This document shows, in pieces, positions 2,879 to 27,988 of a stretch of DNA of 28,392 nt. The first letter of the stretch is position 1; each line of letters begins with the position of its first letter. The position numbers and the translations under genes are program-made. Source of the DNA: a virus; the IMG/VR virus record IMGVR_UViG_3300034062_005178, positions 1 to 28,392 of that record; one strand, 5' to 3'. The notes beneath the pieces were generated by a model. It worked only from the letters and a program-made list of their open reading frames with translations. It was not told where the DNA came from and did not search any database.

Positions 2879-3985
2879 TTAGAACGCGCCGTGGCCGACC
2901 CAGACCGCCTCGCGGGGGCTCTCACAGATGAGCTCGCCGCAAACGTCGATCGGGGCGTACAGGGAGTTGTGGGCGTCGGGCTTCTCGCGGAAGCCGCTCT
3001 CGCGGAACCAGAAGCCGGGCATCCGGGCGATGTAGCACTTGTCGTGGCGGACGCCGAAGATCGGGGCCGTCGCGTCAAGGTCAAGCTGCGGGGCGCGGAT
3101 GATGTTCACGCCGCCGACCGTGCTCTCCTGGAAGGGGAAGATGTCGGCCTTGTTGCCGCTGATGCGGCGATCATCGGGACCGGCGTTGATGAGGTCGAGA
3201 TACGCCTCGTGGAACGCCTGGTTGAGGAAGATCGAGACCGAGCCCATGACCGTCTCGCCGATCTTCTTGGGGAACGCCTTGAAGTTGGTGTAGTTGTTGG
3301 CGCGGCGGATGGCGCGGCAGACATCGAGGGTCAGCGTGCCGCCGTGCGTGAAGTTCCAGTTGCGCCAACGCTCGTTGTTGAGGTCCGCGGCGTCAATGCC
3401 CGCGAGGGTGCTCTGAGCGGTCGCACCGTTGGCGTAGCGGACGTACTGGCCGTTGAAGCCGCCCGTGGTGTCCGCGACGAACGTGCCGGAGCTGTTCATC
3501 GAGGGGCGCGCCCACTGGTAGAGGCTGGTGAGGCGCTTGCCGTCGTTGGGAGCTTGGGGGATGCCGAAGATGTCGCGCTCGAGGGTCGCGTAAACCTCCT
3601 CGAAGAAGGCATCCTTCTTCGTGTTGAGCATGTTCACGATCTGGCCGGGGCCGCCGTTCATTGCACGCTCGCGCGCGTCCACGACGATGCCCTTGCCCTC
3701 GTACTTCACGACCTTGACGGACGCGCGGACGGGGGCCGGACCCTCGACTGCGGACCAAGCCTCGTGGAAGTCCACGCCGCGGAAGGAACCGGAGTTCTTT
3801 CGGAGCTGGACCACCCACTCGAAGGTGTGGCCGTCGAGCGAGTTGCCCGACTTGCCGGAGAGGATGAACTTCTCAACGCCAGCGTACTGCTGGAGCTGCT
3901 GAGTCCCGACGTGCTTCCCCTTCATGAAGTTGGAGATGGTCGTGTTGAGGAGCGTAATCATCTGCGTCTGCGTGATACCGGGCAT
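2879..3985 (-). CDS. Major capsid protein
   Basis: A 368-aa protein with an ATG behind AAAGGAACC. It has the size, composition and position of a phage major capsid protein: directly downstream of an acidic scaffold gene and within the portal-scaffold-capsid order. Its N-terminal region (MPGITQTQMITLLNTTISNF) resembles the start of capsid proteins that assemble without a long cleaved prohead peptide. The middle has an E-loop-like segment (LRKNSGSFRGVDFHEAW) and later an (N/D)-rich region and GVRHDKCYIARMPGFWF near the C-terminus. HK97-fold membership is inferred. No catalytic motif is expected. Confidence is high for role, moderate for fold. Confidence 0.85.
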   Translation of the reverse strand: MPGITQTQMITLLNTTISNFMKGKHVGTQQLQQYAGVEKFILSGKSGNSLDGHTFEWVVQLRKNSGSFRGVDFHEAWSAVEGPAPVRASVKVVKYEGKGIVVDARERAMNGGPGQIVNMLNTKKDAFFEEVYATLERDIFGIPQAPNDGKRLTSLYQWARPSMNSSGTFVADTTGGFNGQYVRYANGATAQSTLAGIDAADLNNERWRNWNFTHGGTLTLDVCRAIRRANNYTNFKAFPKKIGETVMGSVSIFLNQAFHEAYLDLINAGPDDRRISGNKADIFPFQESTVGGVNIIRAPQLDLDATAPIFGVRHDKCYIARMPGFWFRESGFREKPDAHNSLYAPIDVCGELICESPREAVWVGHGAF

Positions 3986-6168: not shown

Positions 6169-7290
6169 TCAGGCGGCACCCGGCAATGCCGGGGCCTTTT
6201 CGTTTGTGGTTTGGGGCATGAGCACGTTCGCAGCCTCCGCGATGCGGCGGCGTGCGATCTCGACGTACTCGGCCTCGCGTTCAAAGCCGATGAAGTTGAA
6301 CCCCTCCAGCATCGCGGCCTTGCCGGTGCTGCCGCTGCCGGTGAACGGGTCTAGGACGGTCCCGCCCGGCGGCGTGACTAGTCGGCAGAGGTATTGCATG
6401 AGGGCCGTGGGCTTGACGGTGGGGTGGTGATTCTCGCGGGCCGTTGACTTGCTTCCAGCGATGTCCCACGCGCGACCGTCGCCGCTTGGTGGGTGTGGCA
6501 TCTTTTGAGGCATCCCATCTAGCCCTTCCGACCGATCCGCCTTGCTCGCCTTGGGCACGTAAAAGAAGCGAGAGGCTGGCGCGTGCCAGTACCCATCTTC
6601 GCCATTCTCGCCCGGAATCCATCGCGTCTCCGGAAACCCCGCCAGCACCTCATCGCTGCCGTCGTGGATCAGGTTTGCGGGCCAGCGACCGAGTTCTTCC
6701 GCCTTCGCCACGGCCGCCTCGCCCCGTGCCTTGCACTGCGCAATGGCCGCCGAATCGTGCTTCCACGGTCGATCCCATCCGTCGGTCTTTGTGCTGACGC
6801 GCCCGCCGTTGAGTTTGTTGCCGTTGGCATTCACCCGGCACCCATCCACATTCACCGCGCCCGTCCCGTGCTGCAGCACGTTCGCCGCCACGGTGCCGGG
6901 GAAGGGCTTGCGGGCCATCGTGATCGGTTCAAGGGCGGGCTTTAGAGCCGTGCCCCAGCCGTTCCAATCACCATCAAGGTTGTGCGACTTCGGGAACCCC
7001 GAGCCGTACACCCAAGCGATCATGTCCCGAATCTCAAAACCAGCATCCTCGATCCGCACCGCCATGCGGTGCTGCGTGCGCGTCCCGGCGAACGCGAGCA
7101 AGTGCCCGCCCGGTTTCAGCACGCGAAGGCACTCGGCCCAGACCTCGACGGCTGGTACGTCGTAGTCCCACTTCTTGCCCATGAAGGACAGGCCGTAGGG
7201 CGGGTCAGTCACCACCGCATCCACGCTCGCATCCGGCATCGCCCGCAGCAGGTCCAGACAGTCGCCATGATCGACGCGCCAAGTTGTCAC
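6169..7290 (-). CDS. Beta-class DNA adenine (or N4-cytosine) methyltransferase
   Basis: A 373-aa protein starting at GTG, overlapping the portal stop by GTGA. Motif IV is TDPPYGLSF (DPPY at residues 29-32), the target-base pocket; motif I is DPFTGSGSTG near 314-323, the AdoMet-binding loop, followed by GFNFIGFEREAEYVEIA. DPPY first and FxGxG last is the beta-class order, so the enzyme transfers methyl groups to exocyclic amino groups, most likely N6 of adenine. It lacks a restriction partner, which suggests a role in protecting phage DNA from host restriction. Its place inside the head operon means late expression, matching methylation before packaging. Specificity cannot be read from sequence. 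Confidence 0.9.
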   Translation of the reverse strand: MTTWRVDHGDCLDLLRAMPDASVDAVVTDPPYGLSFMGKKWDYDVPAVEVWAECLRVLKPGGHLLAFAGTRTQHRMAVRIEDAGFEIRDMIAWVYGSGFPKSHNLDGDWNGWGTALKPALEPITMARKPFPGTVAANVLQHGTGAVNVDGCRVNANGNKLNGGRVSTKTDGWDRPWKHDSAAIAQCKARGEAAVAKAEELGRWPANLIHDGSDEVLAGFPETRWIPGENGEDGYWHAPASRFFYVPKASKADRSEGLDGMPQKMPHPPSGDGRAWDIAGSKSTARENHHPTVKPTALMQYLCRLVTPPGGTVLDPFTGSGSTGKAAMLEGFNFIGFEREAEYVEIARRRIAEAANVLMPQTTNEKAPALPGAA

Positions 7291-18454: not shown

Positions 18455-19449
18455 GCATTGTGACCCGCCCCCGTGCAGACATGATCGACGACGATCAGGA
18501 GCTGCCAACCATCAAGATCGACCAGCCCCAGGACCGGATGAGCCCGGCATCGAGGGCGGAGGTGGACATTCAGATTTCCACCGCAAGGGCCTACCCGCGC
18601 TCGATCAAGAACTTCAAGCAACTCGCGCTGGCAATGGCGACGCTGGACGAGGAGACCGCTTCGGGGTGCTTCTACGCACTTCCAAGGAGCGGCAAGACCA
18701 TCGAGGGGCCGTCGGTTCGCCTCTCGGAGATCGTGGTCTCGGCATGGGGCAACATCCGCGCCGATGCCCGCGTGATCCACGTTGGCGACAAGGAAATCGT
18801 CGCCGAGGGGATGTGCTGGGATCTGGAGCGGAATATCGCCATCCGCAAGCAGGTGACGCGCCGCATTACGGACAAGAACAACCGCCGCTACTCCGAGGAC
18901 ATGATCGTCGTCACGGGCAACGCGGCCTGTTCTATCGCGTTCAGGAACGCCGTGTTCGCGGTGGTGCCTGGGGCATTCGTGAAGTCGATCTATGACGCGG
19001 CCCGGAGCGTGGCCATTGGCGACGCCAAGACGCTGGCCAACAAGCGGGCGGACATGGTGGCCTACTTCGCCAAGATGGGCGTCCAGCCCGACCGCCTGCT
19101 TGCGGCAATCAACAAGGCTGGCGTCGAGGACATCGGGCTCGACGAGCTTGGCCTGCTCAAGGGCATGGCAACAGCCATCAAGGACGGGGACACGACCGTC
19201 GATCAGGCGTTTCCCGATCCCAAGGCGGCTTCACTCCCGGCGACCACTGGGTCCGCTGCGGACAGGCTCATCAGCAAGCTCGCACCGAAGGCGGAGCAGC
19301 CGCCCAGCGAGCCTCCCGCCCCCGCTGAGCCTCCGGCCCCATCCGAGCCCGCCGACGGCATGACGGACGACCAGCGGGCATTCACGGCCAGCCTGCTGCC
19401 AACCGGCGAGCCCGAGAAGGTCGCCAAGCGAGGCACCCCACGCAAGTAG
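18451..19449 (+). CDS. Probable single-strand annealing protein (RecT-like role)
   Basis: ATG start overlapping the exonuclease stop. The 332-aa product has a conserved core: FKQLALAMATLDEETASGCF, then KTIEGPSVRLSEIVVSAWGN, a strand region with AEGMCWDLERNIAIRKQV and FRNAVFAVVPGAFVKSIYDA. This I-x-G-P-S-V-R-L segment with an aromatic-Gly turn recurs in phage proteins encoded next to YqaJ-type exonucleases and is believed to be in the RecT/annealing group. The C-terminus is a Pro/Ala-rich, low-complexity tail (after about residue 265), perhaps flexible. It would coat single strands made by the exonuclease and promote annealing. Family name is uncertain; role comes mainly from context. Confidence 0.75.
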   Translation: MSIVTRPRADMIDDDQELPTIKIDQPQDRMSPASRAEVDIQISTARAYPRSIKNFKQLALAMATLDEETASGCFYALPRSGKTIEGPSVRLSEIVVSAWGNIRADARVIHVGDKEIVAEGMCWDLERNIAIRKQVTRRITDKNNRRYSEDMIVVTGNAACSIAFRNAVFAVVPGAFVKSIYDAARSVAIGDAKTLANKRADMVAYFAKMGVQPDRLLAAINKAGVEDIGLDELGLLKGMATAIKDGDTTVDQAFPDPKAASLPATTGSAADRLISKLAPKAEQPPSEPPAPAEPPAPSEPADGMTDDQRAFTASLLPTGEPEKVAKRGTPRK

Positions 19450-19466
19450 GTCTCTCTCACTCCACT

Positions 19467-19494
19467 CCGCCGCGCTTGTAACCCGACGCGGCGG
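19467..19494 (+). terminator. Hairpin after annealing-protein gene
   Basis: A perfect 8-bp stem CCGCCGCG/CGCGGCGG with a 12-nt loop, 17 nt past the stop at 19449, followed by GGTTTGACC. It has only a short T tract, so it may be a weak terminator or an mRNA-end stabiliser. A second stem (GCCGCC/GGCGGC, 19522-19547) follows. Confidence 0.4.
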
Positions 19495-19563
19495 GGTTTG
19501 ACCAAGGCATCTTCAACCCAAGCCGCCCGTGGGGTCGTAACGGCGGCAACCTCTCTCCAGCCT

Positions 19564-19585
19564 TGACCCGGCAACCACCGGGTCA
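19564..19585 (+). other. Perfect 8-bp hairpin upstream of pentamer array A
   Basis: TGACCCGG/CCGGGTCA (8 pairs) around CAACCA, just before the first hairpin of the repeat array. It is not GAAA-capped, so I treat it as separate from the array. Its role is unknown; it could be a terminator-like stem without a U tract. Confidence 0.4.
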
Positions 19586-19607
19586 GGGCCTTCTAAGCCT
19601 AGCCGCA

Positions 19608-19843
19608 CCCTCGCGTGGCCTTGTCGGTCGCGCGAGGGATTGGACAGGGCAGCGCAGGCCATGTCGGGGCTGGGTGGGGCATGGTTCGGTGGAGCATGGC
19701 AAGGCGACATCTCGCTCGGTTGAAAGACCGGGCGGGGGATTCATGGTCTGGAGTGCCGAGGTCGGGCATGGTGATGCGCGGAGCGGACGGGTCTGGACTG
19801 GCGGGGCATGGATCTCGCCTCATCGGGAAACCGACGGGGCGGG
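19608..19843 (+). repeat. Pentanucleotide (NNNGG) and hairpin array A
   Basis: Three hairpins alternate with two GG-periodic tracts. A1 (19608-19638) has 13 pairs and loop TTGTC; A2 (19711-19736) 11 of 11 pairs with GAAA loop; A3 (19814-19843) 12 of 13 pairs with GAAA loop. Between them GG recurs every five bases. In 19742-19811, 12 of 14 pentamers end in GG; the tract 19639-19704 is similar with one register shift. Sequences within tracts are not identical, so this is a degenerate periodic pattern, not a simple tandem repeat. It lies between the annealing-protein gene and the 205-aa gene, in the latter's 5' leader. Confidence 0.85.
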
Positions 19844-19906
19844 TTTGCGAAGGGTGACGCACAACGGCCAACTTCGGCCAACACCAATCACCCAAAGGGA
19901 GTTCTC

Positions 19907-20524
19907 ATGGCTACGGCAGTTGCACTCGGCGGCGACGTTACGAACCTTGGTGCAGAGACCTACGCGGCGTCCATGCCGTACCGGGCTCGCGTGGAGATCA
20001 CGGGATGCGCGGACATCCTTCTCCACCGCTGGTCGTGTGACGCGGTGGAAGCGAAGTCCAAGGCGGCGAAGGGGAGCAAGGCGAAGAAGTCCGACGACCT
20101 TGAGTCCTACGTCTACCGCAACGAGGATGGCGAGATTTGCTTGCCCGGCGAGTACCTTCGGCAGTCGATCATGGCCGCGGCGAAGTTCCGCCAAGATCCT
20201 CGCTCACCGCGCAAGTCCGCGCGTGACCTTGTGTCGGCGGCGCTGATCCCGCTCACCAACCTCGCGTCGCTCGGCAAGCTCACTTGGGACTACGAGGACC
20301 GCCGCCGCGTGCGCGTCCAGCAGAACGCGATCACTCGCGTCCGCCCGGCGATCCGCATGGGCTGGACTGTTGAGGTCGATTTCATGGTGACGCTGCCCGA
20401 GTACGTGTCGGTGGAGATGTTGCAGGGGATGGTGGTTGACGCTGGACGACTGATCGGCGTCGGCGACTTCCGCCCCACGTTCGGGCGGTTCAACATGACC
20501 GGGTTTGAGATGATTGACTCCTGA
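19907..20524 (+). CDS. 205-aa conserved-looking protein between two hairpin arrays, RAMP-like features
   Basis: The ATG at 19907 is chosen for the AAAGGGAG upstream; the upstream frame runs into the hairpin array. The product has RARVEITGCADILLHRWSCD, a basic Lys/Ser-rich loop (AKSKAAKGSKAKKSDD), then YVYRNEDGEICLPGEYLRQS with a helix, a middle helix (KSARDLVSAALIPLTNLASL), and a C-terminal GRLIGVGDFRPTFGRFNM. The LPGxxLRxxxxxAA segment and terminal Gly-rich loop are loosely like RAMP/Cas7-type RNA-binding proteins; this is only suggestive. It could equally be a phage ssDNA-binding protein of unknown family. It is flanked directly by the two pentamer-hairpin arrays and follows the annealing gene, so a nucleic-acid role is likely. 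No catalytic His is evident. Confidence 0.75.
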   Translation: MATAVALGGDVTNLGAETYAASMPYRARVEITGCADILLHRWSCDAVEAKSKAAKGSKAKKSDDLESYVYRNEDGEICLPGEYLRQSIMAAAKFRQDPRSPRKSARDLVSAALIPLTNLASLGKLTWDYEDRRRVRVQQNAITRVRPAIRMGWTVEVDFMVTLPEYVSVEMLQGMVVDAGRLIGVGDFRPTFGRFNMTGFEMIDS

Positions 20525-20525
20525 T

Positions 20526-21095
20526 CTGGGTTGGGCTCGGAGTGGCTTGGTGGGGCGAGGCCGGGCACGGTGTGGCTGGGCCTGGTCTGGAGTGGCAAGG
20601 AACCCCACGTTCGGGAAACCGTGCGTGGGGGATTGCGGTCCGGCGCGGTTGGGAGTGCTGGGGTCAGGCCCGGCGCGGTCTGGGATGGTCAGGCGCGGAG
20701 CGGCAGGGCAAGGGCTACCGGGTGGCGGAAACGCTGCCCGGAGCATTCAGGGCGCGGTCAGGTGTGGCTCGGCATGGAAGGGCAAGGCGCGGTCGGGTGT
20801 GGCGCGTTGCGGCAAGGAATCACGGGCGACGGAAACGCCGCCTGTGATGTTTCGGATGTGGATTGGCGTGGTTTGGCGAGTCGGGCTGAGGCAAGCTGCG
20901 GCGCGGCGAGGTGCGGAATCCCGCTCGGTTTAACAGCCGGGCGGGGTGTTTAGGCATGGCGCGGTCGTGTCGGGTTTGGTGAGGCAGGGCATGTCCAGGC
21001 GAGGCGCGGTGCGGCATGGAACCGCCCCGTCGGGAAACCGATCGGGCGGGATTGAACTACGCCGCACTGTCCCGTGGCTGAGTAGGTCGCGGGAC
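20526..21095 (+). repeat. Pentanucleotide (NNNGG) and hairpin array B
   Basis: Starts two bases after the stop of the 205-aa gene. First tract (20526-20600): 15 of 15 pentamers end in GG. Later tracts: 20634-20713 (15 of 16), 20751-20820 (13 of 14 as GGNNN), 20857-20916 (9 of 12), 20950-21019 (12 of 14). Hairpins between them: B1 20603-20630 (11 of 12 pairs, GAAA), B2 20718-20741 (10 of 10, GAAA), B3 20819-20848 (12 of 13, GAAA), B4 20920-20945 (11 of 11, TAAC), B5 21022-21049 (11 of 12, GAAA), and B6 21069-21095 (11 pairs, GAGTA). Frames across the array yield only G, R, W, A and S-rich peptides, so it is non-coding. It fills the gap before the replication initiator gene. Confidence 0.88.
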
Positions 21096-21121
21096 GGGTT
21101 GAACGAAAGGGAACACAAGCA

Positions 21122-22081
21122 ATGGCAGGCGACTGGCACCCAATCTTCAACAACCTCCGAGACTCGCCGCGCGTCGTGCGCATGGCCCGCGAGCTGCGCG
21201 TTAAACGAACCTTAATCGTTGGCGCGTGCTCAATCTGGTGGGCGATCCTCGACGAGCACGGCACCAACGGACTGGTCCCAGACTACGGGCTGGATGATCT
21301 AGACCAAGTGGTTCAGATCATCGGGTTCGGCGCTGCGATGGTTTCGGTTGGTTGGATCAAAGTCATTGACGGCGGCCTATTTGCGCCTGAATGGGAGAAG
21401 CACAACAGCCAAGGTGCGAAGGTCAGACTGACCGAGCGAGCCAAGAAGCGGCGGCAGCGTTCCGAGAAACTTTGTCCCGGTTCTGTCCCCGAAAGTGAGG
21501 GACAACTTCGGGACAAAGACGGGACAAACGAGGGACAAAACGGGGACACGACCGGGACCACCACTACCACGACCACTACCACGACCCATAAAGACATTCT
21601 TCCCCCCGCTGCTGCGCAGCGTGCCCCCAAGGGGGCAGGCGAGGCTCCGCCGCTGATCCCAAAGCCGCCCCCGGTGAACTGGGATCACCTGACCGGATGG
21701 CGAGGCATCGACGAACGACGACGAACAGCGTGGGCCGCGGCCTACCCCGCGTGCGACCTCGACCGGCAACTGGCGGCGATGCACGCATGGCTGACGGCCA
21801 ACCCCGAGCGGGCGAGGAAGAGCAACTACGAGCGGTTCATCACGAACTGGCTGAAGCGCGAACAGGATCACGGCGGCGACATGAGGAGCAACGGCAATGG
21901 CAACGGACTTCGGACAAACGGTCGTGGGATTGGCGGCGGAACTCATGCGGCAGAGCGGCGAGCAGCCAAAGCCGCCCGCGAGTACCCCGAACCAGACCTC
22001 GAACTCCCCGTCCAATCATTCTCTGGAAGTGCAGGGGCGGATGATCCGGAGTGGCCTCCCGTTCCGGCACCGCGAGGCTAG
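21122..22081 (+). CDS. Phage replication initiator / replisome organizer (O- or DnaT-like)
   Basis: The ATG follows AAAGGGAAC. N-terminal residues about 1-110 (GDWHPIFNNLRDSPRVVRMA through FAPEWEKHNSQG) form a winged-helix DNA-binding domain as in phage replisome organizers. Then comes a basic patch (LTERAKKRRQRSEK), an acidic and ten-Thr linker, and a C-terminal domain DLDRQLAAMHAWLTANPERA followed by NYERFITNWLKREQD, typical of DnaT/DnaD-like replication proteins that recruit the helicase. The linker DNA carries 11-bp iterons, the probable origin, as in lambda O. The product likely binds them, melts DNA and delivers the helicase with the downstream DnaC-like loader. The last 185 nt overlap that gene. 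Confidence 0.78.
   Translation: MAGDWHPIFNNLRDSPRVVRMARELRVKRTLIVGACSIWWAILDEHGTNGLVPDYGLDDLDQVVQIIGFGAAMVSVGWIKVIDGGLFAPEWEKHNSQGAKVRLTERAKKRRQRSEKLCPGSVPESEGQLRDKDGTNEGQNGDTTGTTTTTTTTTTHKDILPPAAAQRAPKGAGEAPPLIPKPPPVNWDHLTGWRGIDERRRTAWAAAYPACDLDRQLAAMHAWLTANPERARKSNYERFITNWLKREQDHGGDMRSNGNGNGLRTNGRGIGGGTHAAERRAAKAAREYPEPDLELPVQSFSGSAGADDPEWPPVPAPRG
21471..21560 (+). other. Iteron array, probable replication origin
   Basis: Six direct repeats GGGACAA or close variants start at 21499, 21510, 21521, 21532, 21543 and 21554: exact 11-bp steps. The first four are near-identical (GGGACAA plus C or A); the last two drift. Two inverted copies, TTTGTCCC (21471-21478) and CTGTCCC (21483-21489), also step by 11. 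Because 11 is not a multiple of three, selection is on DNA, not protein. A palindrome (GCTGCGCAGC, 21611-21620) and hairpin TGCCCCC-AA-GGGGGCA (21622-21637) follow. Iterons inside an initiator gene are the known layout of lambdoid origins. Confidence 0.75.
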
Positions 22082-23388: not shown

Positions 23389-23621
23389 CCACCACCACCA
23401 CCACCCCCAAACTCACCGGCCTCCAGCGCCGGGTCTACGACGCGATTGACAACCACTGGGCCGAGCTCCACGTCGTCGGCCAGCGTTGCGGCTGGGGCGG
23501 CGAGGGTTGCCGGCGGACCCCGTGCGGATTGTGGCTTGTGGCCTGCTCGTTGCAGCGTCACGGGCTTGTGGAGACCAAGAGCAGGCCGGATCGCGTGAAG
23601 CGAGTGCGAGGTGCGAAGTGA
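23385..23621 (+). CDS. Winged-helix-like small protein (78 aa)
   Basis: ATG overlapping the previous stop. After a Thr-rich start, LTGLQRRVYDAIDNHWAELH is the first helix of a winged-helix-type fold, followed by a Cys-bearing turn (CGWGGEGCRRTPCGLWLV) and CSLQRHGLVETKSRPDRVKR, which looks like the recognition helix and wing. The same compact plan recurs in the genes at 25270, 25572, 25802 and 26035. DNA binding is inferred. Confidence 0.6.
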   Translation: MTTTTTTPKLTGLQRRVYDAIDNHWAELHVVGQRCGWGGEGCRRTPCGLWLVACSLQRHGLVETKSRPDRVKRVRGAK

Positions 23622-25273
23622 GCGAACCCGTCCGCATCCTCATCGGCGACGTTCTGGACGGGCTTCGGTCCCTGCCGGACGGCTCGGCCCAGTGCTGCGT
23701 CACGTCGCCGCCATACTGGGGGCTGCGCGATTACGGCGTGGACGGCCAGATCGGTCTGGAGCCGACGCCCGAGGCTTTCGTCGCCAAGATGGTCGAGGTG
23801 TTCCGCGAGGTCCGGCGCGTGCTGCGTGAGGATGGGGTGTGCTTCCTCAACATCGGGGACAGCTACGCGACGGGGACAACAGCAAACAGGCAGCAGTCGC
23901 CCAATCCCGGCGTCGGCGCGAACTGCCCAGAAGCACAGAACAGCGTGGCACGCATTGGCACGCCGGCGGGCCTGAAAACCAAAGACCTGTGCGGCATCCC
24001 GTGGCGCGTTGTGTTGGCCCTTCAAGCCGATGGGTGGTACTGGCGATCCTGCATCGTGTGGGCGAAGAAGTCGCCGATGCCCGAGAGCGTGACCGACCGG
24101 CCAACGTCGAGCTGGGAGCCGATCTTCCTGCTGGCGAAGGGGGAGCGGTATTTCTATGACAGTTTTGCCGTTCGTGAGCGTGACGCGGAGGCGGTGAAGT
24201 CATACAATAACCTCCATGAAAACAAGCGCGGAATACATGAGGGCGTGGAGAGCGAAGCCGGAGAACCGAGCCAAGTCGAGGGCGTCGGACGCACGGTACA
24301 GGCAAAGCGTCAAAGGCAGGGCGAACCGCGCGGCGTACTCAAAGTCCAAGAAGATGGCGGCGAGTCGGGCGATATGGAGATCCACTCCGGAGGGTCAGGC
24401 GTATGTGGCCCGATACCGCAAGTCTCAGAAGAGGAAGCGGGTGCTTGCCCGCTACTACAGCAGCGGGAAGGGCAGGGCTGCAATCGACCGCTATCAGAAG
24501 ACGCCCAAGGGCGCGGAATCCTTACTTCGCGGAGTTCACAAGCGTCGGGCACGGCTGAAACAGATTGTGTGCGACCTAACTGCGAAACAGTGGCAGGAAA
24601 TACAGGCTCGTCAGAACCATGCGTGCGCGATGTGCAAGAAAGCATCAGCTTTGACTCGCGATCACGTAGTGCCAATCAGCAAGGGCGGGTCGCACACGGC
24701 GGCAAACATTCAAGCGTTGTGCCGGAGCTGCAACAGCAAGAAGGGCAATCGGTAGGCCGCAACCAGCGCAACGTCTGGCACCTTGGACCCGAGCCCTACA
24801 GCGAGGCCCACTTCGCAACCTTCCCCACCGAGATCCCGCGCCGGGCCATCCTCGCCGGGACCAGCGAGAAGGGCGCGTGCCCGGACTGCGGCGCACCGTG
24901 GAAGCGAATCACCACCCGCGAGAAGTTGACCCGCGAGCGGCCAAACGACTTCACGAAGCGGGACGGCGAGGAGGGCACGGGCAACTCGTGCGCCAACACC
25001 GTCGCAGGCGTGGCGACAACGACGCTCGGATGGGAGCCGACATGCAAGTGCGGCAACCCCAACACCGTCCCGTGCGTGGTACTCGATCCGTTCCTCGGCA
25101 GCGGCACGACCATCGCCGTAGCCCGCACGCTCGGGCGGCATGGCGTCGGATGCGAGTTGAACCCGGCCTACGCGGAGCTGGCCCGCGAGCGGATCGGGAA
25201 GGCAGAGAAGCCCAGCACGTTCGTATCGGCAAAGGCGGACGAGTCGCCACTGTTCTCAGGAGCAACCAAGTGA
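23618..25273 (+). CDS. DNA methyltransferase with internal insertion carrying an HNH gene
   Basis: GTG start at 23618 overlapping the previous stop. The 551-aa frame has motif IV TSPPYWGLRDYG (SPPY at 30-33) and motif I LDPFLGSGTTIA near 488-498 in beta-class order, with GRNQRNVWHLGP and FATFPTEIPRRAILAG before a Cys knuckle CPDCGAPW. SPPY suggests N4-cytosine or N6-adenine transfer. Between about residues 193 and 377 the sequence is low in hydrophobics and unlike a methyltransferase; this part is the other reading frame of the HNH gene (24216-24755). The frame remains open throughout, so the product may be a full enzyme with a large loop, or an inactivated one. Its likely role is anti-restriction. 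Confidence 0.8.
   Translation: MSEPVRILIGDVLDGLRSLPDGSAQCCVTSPPYWGLRDYGVDGQIGLEPTPEAFVAKMVEVFREVRRVLREDGVCFLNIGDSYATGTTANRQQSPNPGVGANCPEAQNSVARIGTPAGLKTKDLCGIPWRVVLALQADGWYWRSCIVWAKKSPMPESVTDRPTSSWEPIFLLAKGERYFYDSFAVRERDAEAVKSYNNLHENKRGIHEGVESEAGEPSQVEGVGRTVQAKRQRQGEPRGVLKVQEDGGESGDMEIHSGGSGVCGPIPQVSEEEAGACPLLQQREGQGCNRPLSEDAQGRGILTSRSSQASGTAETDCVRPNCETVAGNTGSSEPCVRDVQESISFDSRSRSANQQGRVAHGGKHSSVVPELQQQEGQSVGRNQRNVWHLGPEPYSEAHFATFPTEIPRRAILAGTSEKGACPDCGAPWKRITTREKLTRERPNDFTKRDGEEGTGNSCANTVAGVATTTLGWEPTCKCGNPNTVPCVVLDPFLGSGTTIAVARTLGRHGVGCELNPAYAELARERIGKAEKPSTFVSAKADESPLFSGATK
24216..24755 (+). CDS. HNH endonuclease nested out of frame in methyltransferase gene
   Basis: ATG at 24216; the region just before it is less GC-rich and has no strong ribosome site. 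The 179-aa product has a long basic repeat-like region (RAKPENRAKSRASDARYRQS, SKSKKMAASRAIWRS, SQKRKRVLARYYSSGKG), typical of HNH homing-type enzymes, then CAMCKK, DHVVPISKGG and NIQALCRSCNSKKGN, an HNH domain with two Cys pairs (Cys137/140 and 169/172) and His150. It would cut or nick DNA and spread itself. It lies entirely within the methyltransferase gene in another frame and ends near the resumption of recognisable methyltransferase sequence. Confidence 0.82.
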   Translation: MKTSAEYMRAWRAKPENRAKSRASDARYRQSVKGRANRAAYSKSKKMAASRAIWRSTPEGQAYVARYRKSQKRKRVLARYYSSGKGRAAIDRYQKTPKGAESLLRGVHKRRARLKQIVCDLTAKQWQEIQARQNHACAMCKKASALTRDHVVPISKGGSHTAANIQALCRSCNSKKGNR

Positions 25274-26400: not shown

Positions 26401-26780
26401 ACATCGACTACATGCTGGACGACGACAAGTGCTGCACGCTTCGCAACGCATTCATCGACAAGAACGGTGACGACCCATACGACGCATGGGACGCCGGCTG
26501 GCGAGCCGCGTGCGAGGCGATGCACAAGAAGGCACAGGCCAAGGCCGCCCCCGATTGGCGCGCGGCGTGCGTGGTGGAGAAGTGCGAGGATGGCGACTGG
26601 GATGTTGTGAGTCCTAGCGGTGAGTTCTGGTTGTACGAAGTTCGGCCTTGTTGGATGGGGTTTGACGATTCGGTTAAACGCAGCAAGATCGGTTCATTCG
26701 GGTGTGAGATCTCCGCCCGCGCCGCCCTCGCCGCCTGCCCGACCCCGCCGCCGGATTGGGAGGGTTCAAAGTGTGGCTAA
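26397..26780 (+). CDS. Hypothetical protein (127 aa)
   Basis: GTG overlapping the previous stop. The N-terminal half contains NAFIDKNGDDPYDAWDAGWR and ACEAMHKKAQAKAA, a helical, aromatic stretch common in phage proteins of unknown role; the C-terminal half is strand-rich with cysteines (VVSPSGEFWLYEVRPCWMG). Its last bases overlap the starts of both following reading frames, so translation is likely coupled. Confidence 0.6.
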   Translation: MNIDYMLDDDKCCTLRNAFIDKNGDDPYDAWDAGWRAACEAMHKKAQAKAAPDWRAACVVEKCEDGDWDVVSPSGEFWLYEVRPCWMGFDDSVKRSKIGSFGCEISARAALAACPTPPPDWEGSKCG

Positions 26781-27988
26781 TCGTCCCTTCAACATCATCT
26801 CCCTCTGCGCCGGCGGCGGCGGACTCGACCGCGGCACCGAGCTCGCTCTGTCCCGACTTGGCTTCTCGCCTCGCACAGTCTGCTGCGTTGAGCGGGACGC
26901 CTTCGCCTGCGAAGTCTTGGCGGGCGAGATGGAAGCGGGACGCATGGCTCCGGCGGCTGTGTGGTCGGATCTGCGAACCTTCGACGGCCGCCCGTGGCGT
27001 GGAATCGTTCACGGCGTCATTGCGGGCATCCCTTGCCAGGGTAACTCACTCGCCGGAAAGCGGCTCCTCGCCGACGACGAGCGGGACTTGTGGTCGGACA
27101 CGGCTCGAATCCTTCGGGAAGTTCAGCCTGAGTGGTTCCTCCTCGAAAACGTCTACGGCTTCATGGTCCCCGATCGGGCGGGAAATCGCGAGGCCCCGAT
27201 TCGACGGGTCCTCCGCGAGCTGGCCGAGATGGGGTGGGATGCGGAATGGTGTGTGCTTCCGGCGTCCAGCGTTGGAGCCAGCCACCGGCGCGAGCGGGTC
27301 TTCGTGCTGGCCCACTCACACGGTCTGTTCGGACGGGAACGCAACGGCCAACCGCGGCATCAGCCTTCCTCGAAGCGCCCGGAACTTCTCGGAGGGATCG
27401 GTTGCGATGTGGCCCACGGCCCGAGCGGAGGACTCGGAAAGTGCGGGCAACCACCCCAACGCGACGGACAGCCTGACGGGGGCGACAAGGACTTGGGCAA
27501 CGCCGCGAGCACAGATGGCGAACGGCGACGGGGAGCACGGGCAGGGCGGGGTGGACCTGCAAACGCAGGTGACGAACTGGCCGACGCCCGACGCGAACTG
27601 CCACAAGGGATCGACGCAGCCGGGCCAGCGCGTGGGCCAACTGGACGAGGCGGCGGAGGTGCTTTGGCAGACGCCGGGGACGAATCTGGAGGGCTCGGGA
27701 ACGTCGAGGGGCAACGAGCGGAGCGGCGAACTGCTCATCACCGGGCAAGCGTGCTCCCTCTCTTCGCTCCTGGCCCAGCCGACCCACGCTGGCGAGACAT
27801 CATCGCCCTCGCGCCGTCGCTTGAACCCGCAGTTCGTGACCTGGCTGATGGGCTGGCCTCCACTCGGCGAGAGTGGCTTCGCGTTCTCGGAAACGGAGTG
27901 GTGCCACTACAGGCAGCGTCAGCAATCGTCGCTCTCTGGAATGCGATGGAAGGAGATCGGCAATGACGACGCCAGCCTCTTCACCTGA
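26771..27988 (+). CDS. Overlapping frame of C5 methyltransferase gene; WPTP / LMGWP-type protein
   Basis: GTG at 26771 (TTG 26756 also possible) opens a frame of about 405 aa that overlaps the C5 methyltransferase by nearly its whole length. Its parts resemble phage methyltransferase-associated proteins: SWPRWGGMRNGVCFRRPALE, then GSSCWPT, ATPRAQMANGD, TNWPTPDANCHKGS, a Ser/Gly/Thr-rich linker, and RRLNPQFVTWLMGWPP with an ETEWCHYRQRQQSSLSGM tail. WPTP repeats ending in LNPxFVxWLMGWP are a familiar pattern in that group. The first 150 residues look less certain. Both frames may be translated, or this one may show old coding. The gene role is unknown. Confidence 0.5.
   Translation: MWLIVPSTSSPSAPAAADSTAAPSSLCPDLASRLAQSAALSGTPSPAKSWRARWKRDAWLRRLCGRICEPSTAARGVESFTASLRASLARVTHSPESGSSPTTSGTCGRTRLESFGKFSLSGSSSKTSTASWSPIGREIARPRFDGSSASWPRWGGMRNGVCFRRPALEPATGASGSSCWPTHTVCSDGNATANRGISLPRSARNFSEGSVAMWPTARAEDSESAGNHPNATDSLTGATRTWATPRAQMANGDGEHGQGGVDLQTQVTNWPTPDANCHKGSTQPGQRVGQLDEAAEVLWQTPGTNLEGSGTSRGNERSGELLITGQACSLSSLLAQPTHAGETSSPSRRRLNPQFVTWLMGWPPLGESGFAFSETEWCHYRQRQQSSLSGMRWKEIGNDDASLFT
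26773..27966 (+). CDS. C5-cytosine DNA methyltransferase
   Basis: GTG at 26773 with GGGAGGG upstream. The 397-aa product has AdoMet motif I SLCAGGGGLDRG (about 10-21), motif IV GIPCQGN with catalytic Cys88, motif VI ENV (125-127), the motif VIII-like HRRERVFVLA (171-180), and near its end LGNGVVPLQAA, a motif X-like segment. Between residues about 185 and 330 is a long Gly/Arg-rich variable region, as in related phage enzymes, where target-recognition sequences vary. It methylates C5 of cytosine, probably to evade restriction. Its frame overlaps the 26771-27988 frame almost completely. Stop overlaps the next gene by ATGA. Confidence 0.86.
   Translation: MANRPFNIISLCAGGGGLDRGTELALSRLGFSPRTVCCVERDAFACEVLAGEMEAGRMAPAAVWSDLRTFDGRPWRGIVHGVIAGIPCQGNSLAGKRLLADDERDLWSDTARILREVQPEWFLLENVYGFMVPDRAGNREAPIRRVLRELAEMGWDAEWCVLPASSVGASHRRERVFVLAHSHGLFGRERNGQPRHQPSSKRPELLGGIGCDVAHGPSGGLGKCGQPPQRDGQPDGGDKDLGNAASTDGERRRGARAGRGGPANAGDELADARRELPQGIDAAGPARGPTGRGGGGALADAGDESGGLGNVEGQRAERRTAHHRASVLPLFAPGPADPRWRDIIALAPSLEPAVRDLADGLASTRREWLRVLGNGVVPLQAASAIVALWNAMEGDRQ

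Follow-up and report, generated by a model that had tools for sequence, protein, structure and literature searches.

The closest described relatives of the locus presented here are the VIPR systems, which were described in 2026 in a preprint (PMC13142463); what follows on them is drawn from the available part of that source. Structurally, a VIPR system combines the RAMP protein Vipr with vrRNAs of 9-16 YNNGG repeats followed by a 3' tail. Within the repeats GGY is conserved and the NN letters are variable, and the vrRNAs are located in the intergenic regions around vipr, on the same strand. The NN pairs read double-stranded DNA with one base skipped, and the complex represses transcription. 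In the clades characterised there the tail is invariable, and it is pseudoknotted in the SUSP1 clade. The accessory gene vap is typical of VIPR systems, and SUSP1 carries one vrRNA tract upstream and three downstream of vipr. The array forms named in this part of the preprint are the staggered, hammerhead-interspersed and single-vrRNA forms, with seven types in all. The unit of class 1 CRISPR is given as six bases, and VIPR is proposed by the authors as a forerunner of CRISPR (PMC13142463).

Here we describe a locus in a virus record of IMG/VR, 28,392 bases in length (the window, meaning the whole stretch of DNA that was analysed). The region is very probably a VIPR locus of an uncultured bacterial virus, with one vipr gene and seven guides on the same strand, each consisting of 12-16 YNNGG units and a hairpin tail, capped with GAAA in six of the seven. 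This reading, which places the locus outside the SUSP1 Vipr clade, follows from the homology and RAMP fold of its Vipr, from the YNNGG tracts, and from the association of Vipr with such tracts in other viral loci. The stretch 19450-21121 comprises a single gene (19907-20524, + strand, 205 codons) flanked by two intergenic regions, and the guides are ordered on the + strand with two vrRNAs upstream of vipr and five downstream. Neither a sigma-70-like promoter pattern nor a terminator pattern was found in 19400-21200, and the sole Rfam family in the window at gathering scores is a tRNA. What a preliminary description of the same DNA had observed is confirmed; its interpretation proves partly supported, being right in outline and wrong in details.

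That description had reported GG at every fifth base in seven tracts, with NNNGG as the unit. The phase itself is robust to shuffling that preserves dinucleotides. The downstream region (20525-21121) contains 59 GG-to-GG pairs at five bases, against 23.0 +/- 4.2 in shuffles (maximum 38), and the upstream region (19638-19906) contains 21, against 10.0 +/- 2.8 (maximum 19), with none of 2,000 shuffles reaching the count in either region. The longest perfect GG run is 15 downstream (shuffle maximum 7; 0/2,000) and 7 upstream, the latter equalled in 2 of 2,000 shuffles. The five-base excess is absent within the gene between the two intergenic regions; the phased DNA is non-coding, as had been stated, with the 205-codon gene inside the interval having been overlooked. 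Over 91 whole units, the base counts are G in 87 and G in 82 for the two conserved positions and a pyrimidine in 80 for the next (C 49, T 31), with positions 4-5 mixed. Since a pyrimidine is the third base in 80 of the 91, the unit is YNNGG and not NNNGG.

The tracts, delimited by Viterbi segmentation and a phase count, number seven, with 12-16 units each, all on the + strand. Upstream of vipr are tract 1 (19645-19707), which is irregular and perhaps decaying, with GG at 8 of 12 units, and tract 2 (19742-19811; 12/14). Tract 3 (20526-20600) begins directly after the vipr stop codon and has GG in 15 of 15 units, exactly as first described. It is followed by tract 4 (20634-20713; 15/16), tract 5 (20748-20817; 13/14), tract 6 (20857-20916; 9/12) and tract 7 (20950-21021; 12/14). 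The ends of such tracts have a bias of their own. Over 200 tracts from 84 loci, the first N is A in 57% of last units and in 49% of last but one, against 23-33% three to seven units inward, and AA or AT is the majority last pair in only 25 of the 84 loci. Given this A-rich first base, a handle rather than the guide may take in the final one or two repeats.

The nine hairpins first described are all stable, each folding better than all 200 of its shuffles (z -3.50 to -6.05), and they are of two kinds. Seven lie directly 3' of a tract and carry a four-base loop, which is GAAA in six and TAAC in one. These form the 3' tails, on the + strand, of vrRNA 1 (19710-19737; z -4.69), vrRNA 2 (19814-19843; z -4.41), vrRNA 3 (20603-20630; z -4.52), vrRNA 4 (20714-20744; z -6.05), vrRNA 5 (20819-20848; z -4.85), vrRNA 6, the one with TAAC (20918-20947; z -5.77), and vrRNA 7 (21022-21049; z -3.50). 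The first and the ninth, on the same strand, are of another kind, with 13 pairs, a five-base loop and a common GTGGCY...GGTCGC, and they bracket the whole locus, one before tract 1 (19608-19638; z -4.61) and one after the last tail (21067-21097; z -3.84).

The tails are constant in structure and diverse in sequence. A MAFFT alignment put their loops out of register, and the pairs were therefore counted by a script centred on the loop, without a covariance model. Over seven tails and 11 pairs outward from the loop, 72 of 77 are standard pairs, and sliding one arm by 1-3 bases leaves only 26-37. At nine of the eleven positions the standard pairs are of two or more kinds, and the tail sequences differ between copies, with at most 84% identity among those aligned, which agrees with the original remark that the stems differ in sequence and keep their pairing. 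The repeats of the region have diverged from one another (60-84% identity) and no identical CRISPR-like repeats were found in it. CRISPR had been rightly set aside. The same hairpin form, whose recurrence the preliminary description had named as a test, did not turn up elsewhere: a GAAA tetraloop tail occurs more than once in 0 of 75 other loci compared, by a rough hairpin finder, which detected six of the seven tails in the window itself. By the same rough finder, a GAAA loop appears once each in loci L011 and L050, and a seven-base loop starting with GAAA appears three times in L019.

The gene within the interval encodes a 205-residue protein that matches phrog_4652 (unknown function in the PHROG annotation) and no family in a Pfam scan. 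Against PDB sequences, phmmer returns a single entry, 36pp, which is the SUSP1 Vipr protein (E 9.3e-7; 27% identity), and a 34-sequence profile finds the same entry at E 7.2e-43. An AlphaFold2 model (pLDDT 93.1, pTM 0.85) is similar in fold to subunits of type VII and type III CRISPR complexes, including Csm3 (row 6ae2), at a best Z of 12.6 and 4.2 A over 163 residues. The residues G184, R189, P190 and G193 are invariant across 34 aligned sequences, and the reading frame is open over 205 codons with a conserved GVGDFRPTFGRF stretch. By homology and predicted fold, the product of 19907-20524 is a Vipr, a small RAMP homologue and putative guide-RNA-binding subunit, and it is most likely the protein that uses the seven guides. 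It shares the RAMP fold with the Cas7/Csm3-type proteins of class 1 CRISPR (Z about 12), but it differs from these in having about 11% sequence identity, a five-base instead of a six-base unit, and no identical repeats.

The neighbours of vipr are a phrog_3657 gene, of unknown function in the PHROG annotation, and a replication initiation gene. Among the loci listed, relatives of the former lie near vipr in two Vipr loci (L106, L021) and relatives of the latter also in two (L021, L043). Judged by PHROGs or Pfam family and by locus context, none of the genes beside vipr was recognised as vap. Downstream of the array, the window contains DNA methyltransferase genes (Pfam, PHROGs) at 23486-25273 and 26620-27966. 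A DNA similarity search against phages matched a single record, and the match is confined to the vipr gene. The terminase weakly resembles sequences in 19 of 294 genomes of one phylum (28-34% identity) and in 1 of 200 genomes of another (37-40%), and it reaches at most 36% identity among its best 12 matches to phage terminases.

The association of Vipr with such tracts extends to other viral loci. A scan of viral contigs with the DNA pattern (GGNNN)x10-GG gave at least 120 loci, which were taken as the sample and in which Vipr was sought by iterated HMM searches. Vipr was found in 82 of the 120, among the matches listed, one of the 82 (L016) being matched over 29 residues only. In these 82 loci, among those listed, 364 of 367 tracts are on the strand of vipr, and the nearest tract is 0-806 bases away from it. 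The other 38 listed loci have no Vipr match, and in some of these the tract is at the end of the locus. The five-base phase thus recurs in other loci, in line with the test that the preliminary description had set. G-rich pentamers can originate by slippage, and a locus of functionless low-complexity or repeat-slippage DNA is a reading to which we give next to no probability. Three of the five positions in its units are variable, two of these freely so, while the phase is preserved, and the changes in the tails are paired. The tie of strand and position to vipr in the 82 loci, among the matches listed, already contradicts slippage, which the preliminary description had also dismissed.

A tree of 86 Viprs places the window in a clade of 16 rows with support 100/100, and SUSP1 and Medea1 lie outside it; the nearest rows are L025, L123 and L069. 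The loci of these relatives are varied in layout. In L025, one uninterrupted tract (6308-7012; GG 134/141) directly follows a vipr of the window's clade, and L069 has an uninterrupted tract with GG at 143 of 175 units. Uninterrupted arrays of this kind are perhaps the staggered form named in the available part of the preprint (PMC13142463). L123 (a reversed locus) has spacers of about 80 bases (2483-2565 and 2736-2815) with the conserved blocks CGCTGATCGGCG, CCGACATATG and AGCGATACACGAGAGACAA in common, and these spacers match no Rfam family at gathering scores. L009 (reversed, 3163-3563), of the same clade, has four near-identical 49-base spacers, as against the diversified tails of the window. 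Outside these comparisons, the strand of vipr in L114 carries 29 short tracts (7-18 GG), the most among the 82 listed Vipr loci.

The complete deposited genome of phage DSL-LC04 (OR003939.1; locus L006, 4592-5498) carries a Vipr of the same clade with 56-57% identity to that of the window and YNNGG tracts just upstream, and it is a possible laboratory model. Its tracts, unlike those of the window, are longer (up to 18/21), its spacers are different, and its vipr gene is annotated as a helix-turn-helix regulator.

Compared with the published systems, the window has a Vipr, seven YNNGG tracts of 12-16 units, placement on both sides of vipr on the same strand, and a structured 3' tail on each guide. 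With the type II VIPR of SUSP1 and P. fulva, as presented in the available part of PMC13142463, it shares a Vipr homologue in a phage, same-strand YNNGG vrRNAs and a structured 3' tail. The placement of vrRNAs on both sides of vipr is likewise common to the window and SUSP1, and our tract script, run on SUSP1, returns one tract before vipr and three after it, in agreement with the preprint. The window differs from the SUSP1 and P. fulva systems, so far as these are covered in that part of the source, in its seven guides, in the sequence-diverse hairpin tails, and in that no vap was found beside vipr. Membership in type II (the SUSP1 clade) was rejected; the window Vipr belongs to the separate 16-row clade, and the tail sequences differ between copies. 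Like the staggered, hammerhead-interspersed and single-vrRNA forms (PMC13142463, available part), the array represents another layout around the same code. A hammerhead-interspersed array was rejected as well, for the Rfam scan of the window gave no hammerhead at gathering scores and plain hairpins separate the tracts. The tail form of this locus differs from the tails described in the available part of PMC13142463, and the plain-hairpin array may itself be one of the seven types counted there.

The variable letters were also read as guides. Over 387 tracts, the best codon frame of the NN letters is positions 1-2 in 216, 2-3 in 131 and 3-1 in 40, a test that takes in tracts of loci without Vipr and may be partly compositional. 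Within the window's clade the corresponding numbers are 26, 14 and 4, and in the window four of six scored tracts fit codon positions 1-2, with tracts 3 and 4 slightly better at 2-3. When the 387 tracts were compared with 1.09 Mb of collected loci at skips of 0-3, the real tracts did no better than shuffled ones at any skip, so this set lends the skip rule no support.

The NN letters of tract 6 form a Toprim-like motif, V[FL]V[FL][DE]G[DE][NK]AA[DE]A, which was spotted by eye in the decoded letters before the genome search was chosen. With a one-base skip and at most 3 mismatches in 24, tract 6 had matches in 8 of the 294 genomes from the phylum to which a Gemmatales MAG belongs (0/294 for the reversed pattern as control) and in 7 of 200 from that of a Betaproteobacteria MAG (3/200 for the reversed pattern), in a register where one-base-skip patterns favour conserved protein motifs in general. 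At a two-base skip, the sole skip control in genomes, it matched 0/294. All seven Betaproteobacteria-phylum sites read EGEK[AT]AD. The eight sites of the other set read EGEK in five cases and FDGD in two (DnaG-like by eye), with one (G257) in a doubtful frame, which brings the EGEK sites to 12 of 15 over both genome sets. The best match of these eight, at 23 of 24 letters, falls within a gene that has DUF3987 together with a Toprim_3 below threshold; Toprim_3 scores 26.6 in L249, just below the Pfam cut-off of 27.2, and L248 and L250 have AAA_25 only. Read by the one-base-skip rule, guide 6 spells a Toprim-like motif, a reading of its letters which does not fix the target.

The preliminary description had likened the tracts to a ribonucleoprotein footprint of the TRAP kind, and had considered a multivalent scaffold or a phage non-coding RNA. 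The target RNA of TRAP consists of NAG triplets at about five-base spacing. A TRAP target was rejected here, since the phased letters are GGY and no TRAP family is among the matches of 10 window proteins scanned, a subset of the window's genes. What stands of the comparison is that the phase suits an oligomeric RNA-binding protein, the likely partner being the Vipr-type RAMP encoded inside the interval. It may still be asked if the RNA is only a TRAP-like multivalent scaffold or sponge for an oligomeric protein, with no targeting. The five-base phase and repeated hairpins would suit such a role, as would the result that no exact target was found for any of T2, T3, T4, T6 and T7, the guides covered by the search. 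Against it, the unit is YNNGG rather than NAG spacing, the NN letters favour codon positions 1-2 (216/387, possibly in part by composition), and tract 6 matches Toprim-like motifs at a one-base skip and nothing at two (0/294). From the codon fit and the tract 6 matches, the variable letters seem to carry information. Additionally, the partner gene is a Vipr, whose guiding is published (PMC13142463, available part). We regard a pure scaffold as highly improbable. The phage non-coding RNA that had been suggested is retained, with tracts that match the vrRNA guides of the preprint's available part and not a passive scaffold.

The target search for the guides was as follows. No exact target was found for T2, T3, T4, T6 or T7, and their extensions amounted to near-chance or family-level matches. 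Ten-unit patterns of T6 and T2 gave 0 loci in viral contigs. The nine-unit pattern of T2 gave 78 loci in genome contigs, with extensions of at most 24/28 letters. Eight-unit patterns gave near-chance extensions throughout, with 14 loci for T6 (at most 20/24), 12 for T7 (at most 20/28), 5 for T3 (at most 20/30) and 1 for T4 (23/32). T2 with at most 3 mismatches was absent from the 294 genomes of the Gemmatales MAG's phylum, and T4 (15 units) was absent from 120 genomes. By eye, T2 looks like a helix-turn-helix motif (LVDRIEAARLLGI), as a candidate only. The decoded peptides, padded with X, had no match in Pfam, although such very short queries carry little weight.

These null searches also bear on the possibility that the locus is a decaying or inactive VIPR remnant, with an intact vipr and most guides no longer working. 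Tract 1 has lost GG at 4 of its 12 units and tract 6 at 3 of 12; some guides may therefore be dead, and the lack of an exact target for T2, T3, T4, T6 and T7 points the same way. Yet vipr is open over 205 codons with its GVGDFRPTFGRF stretch conserved, tract 3 has GG in 15 of 15 units, all seven tails still pair, and a SUSP1 tract is likewise without GG at some units (7/11 in one). A remnant is thus improbable, if less so than a passive scaffold, and the region is better read as a seven-guide VIPR locus.

For such a locus, the mode of action would follow the SUSP1 and P. fulva work, as given in the available part of PMC13142463. By analogy, Vipr subunits would be arrayed along the tract and display its NN pairs, these pairs would read double-stranded DNA with one base skipped per pair, and the bound complex would block transcription of genes that belong to rival phages or to mobile elements of other kinds. 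To this we would add that one Vipr subunit may sit on each five bases, that the tail may be recognised by its shape and not by its sequence, that the skip base may be the codon wobble position in the window's clade too, and that vrRNA 6 may be aimed at a Toprim (primase-type) gene. As a tentative proposal, which we hold to be somewhat doubtful, the clade could have a guide form of its own. This would be a multi-guide array without vap, in which every guide ends in a GNRA-capped hairpin of diversified sequence, to be read by shape alone, either by Vipr or by a processing enzyme. Working in a bacterial host from the environment, such guides would be directed against replication genes (Toprim primases) and regulators that belong to rival elements.

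VIPR is a very recent and RNA-guided system, and the present locus was picked out from raw sequence alone. The survey, performed with the pattern only, provides independent support, with Vipr in 82 of 120 loci among the matches listed. The Toprim reading of guide 6 represents a testable target class. If the proposed guide form is true, guides with such diversified tails would recombine less readily with one another. The locus adds to VIPR a guide architecture in which the structure of the tail is kept and its sequence is varied, and it therefore lends itself, as a natural experiment, to the question of how guides are recognised by Vipr.
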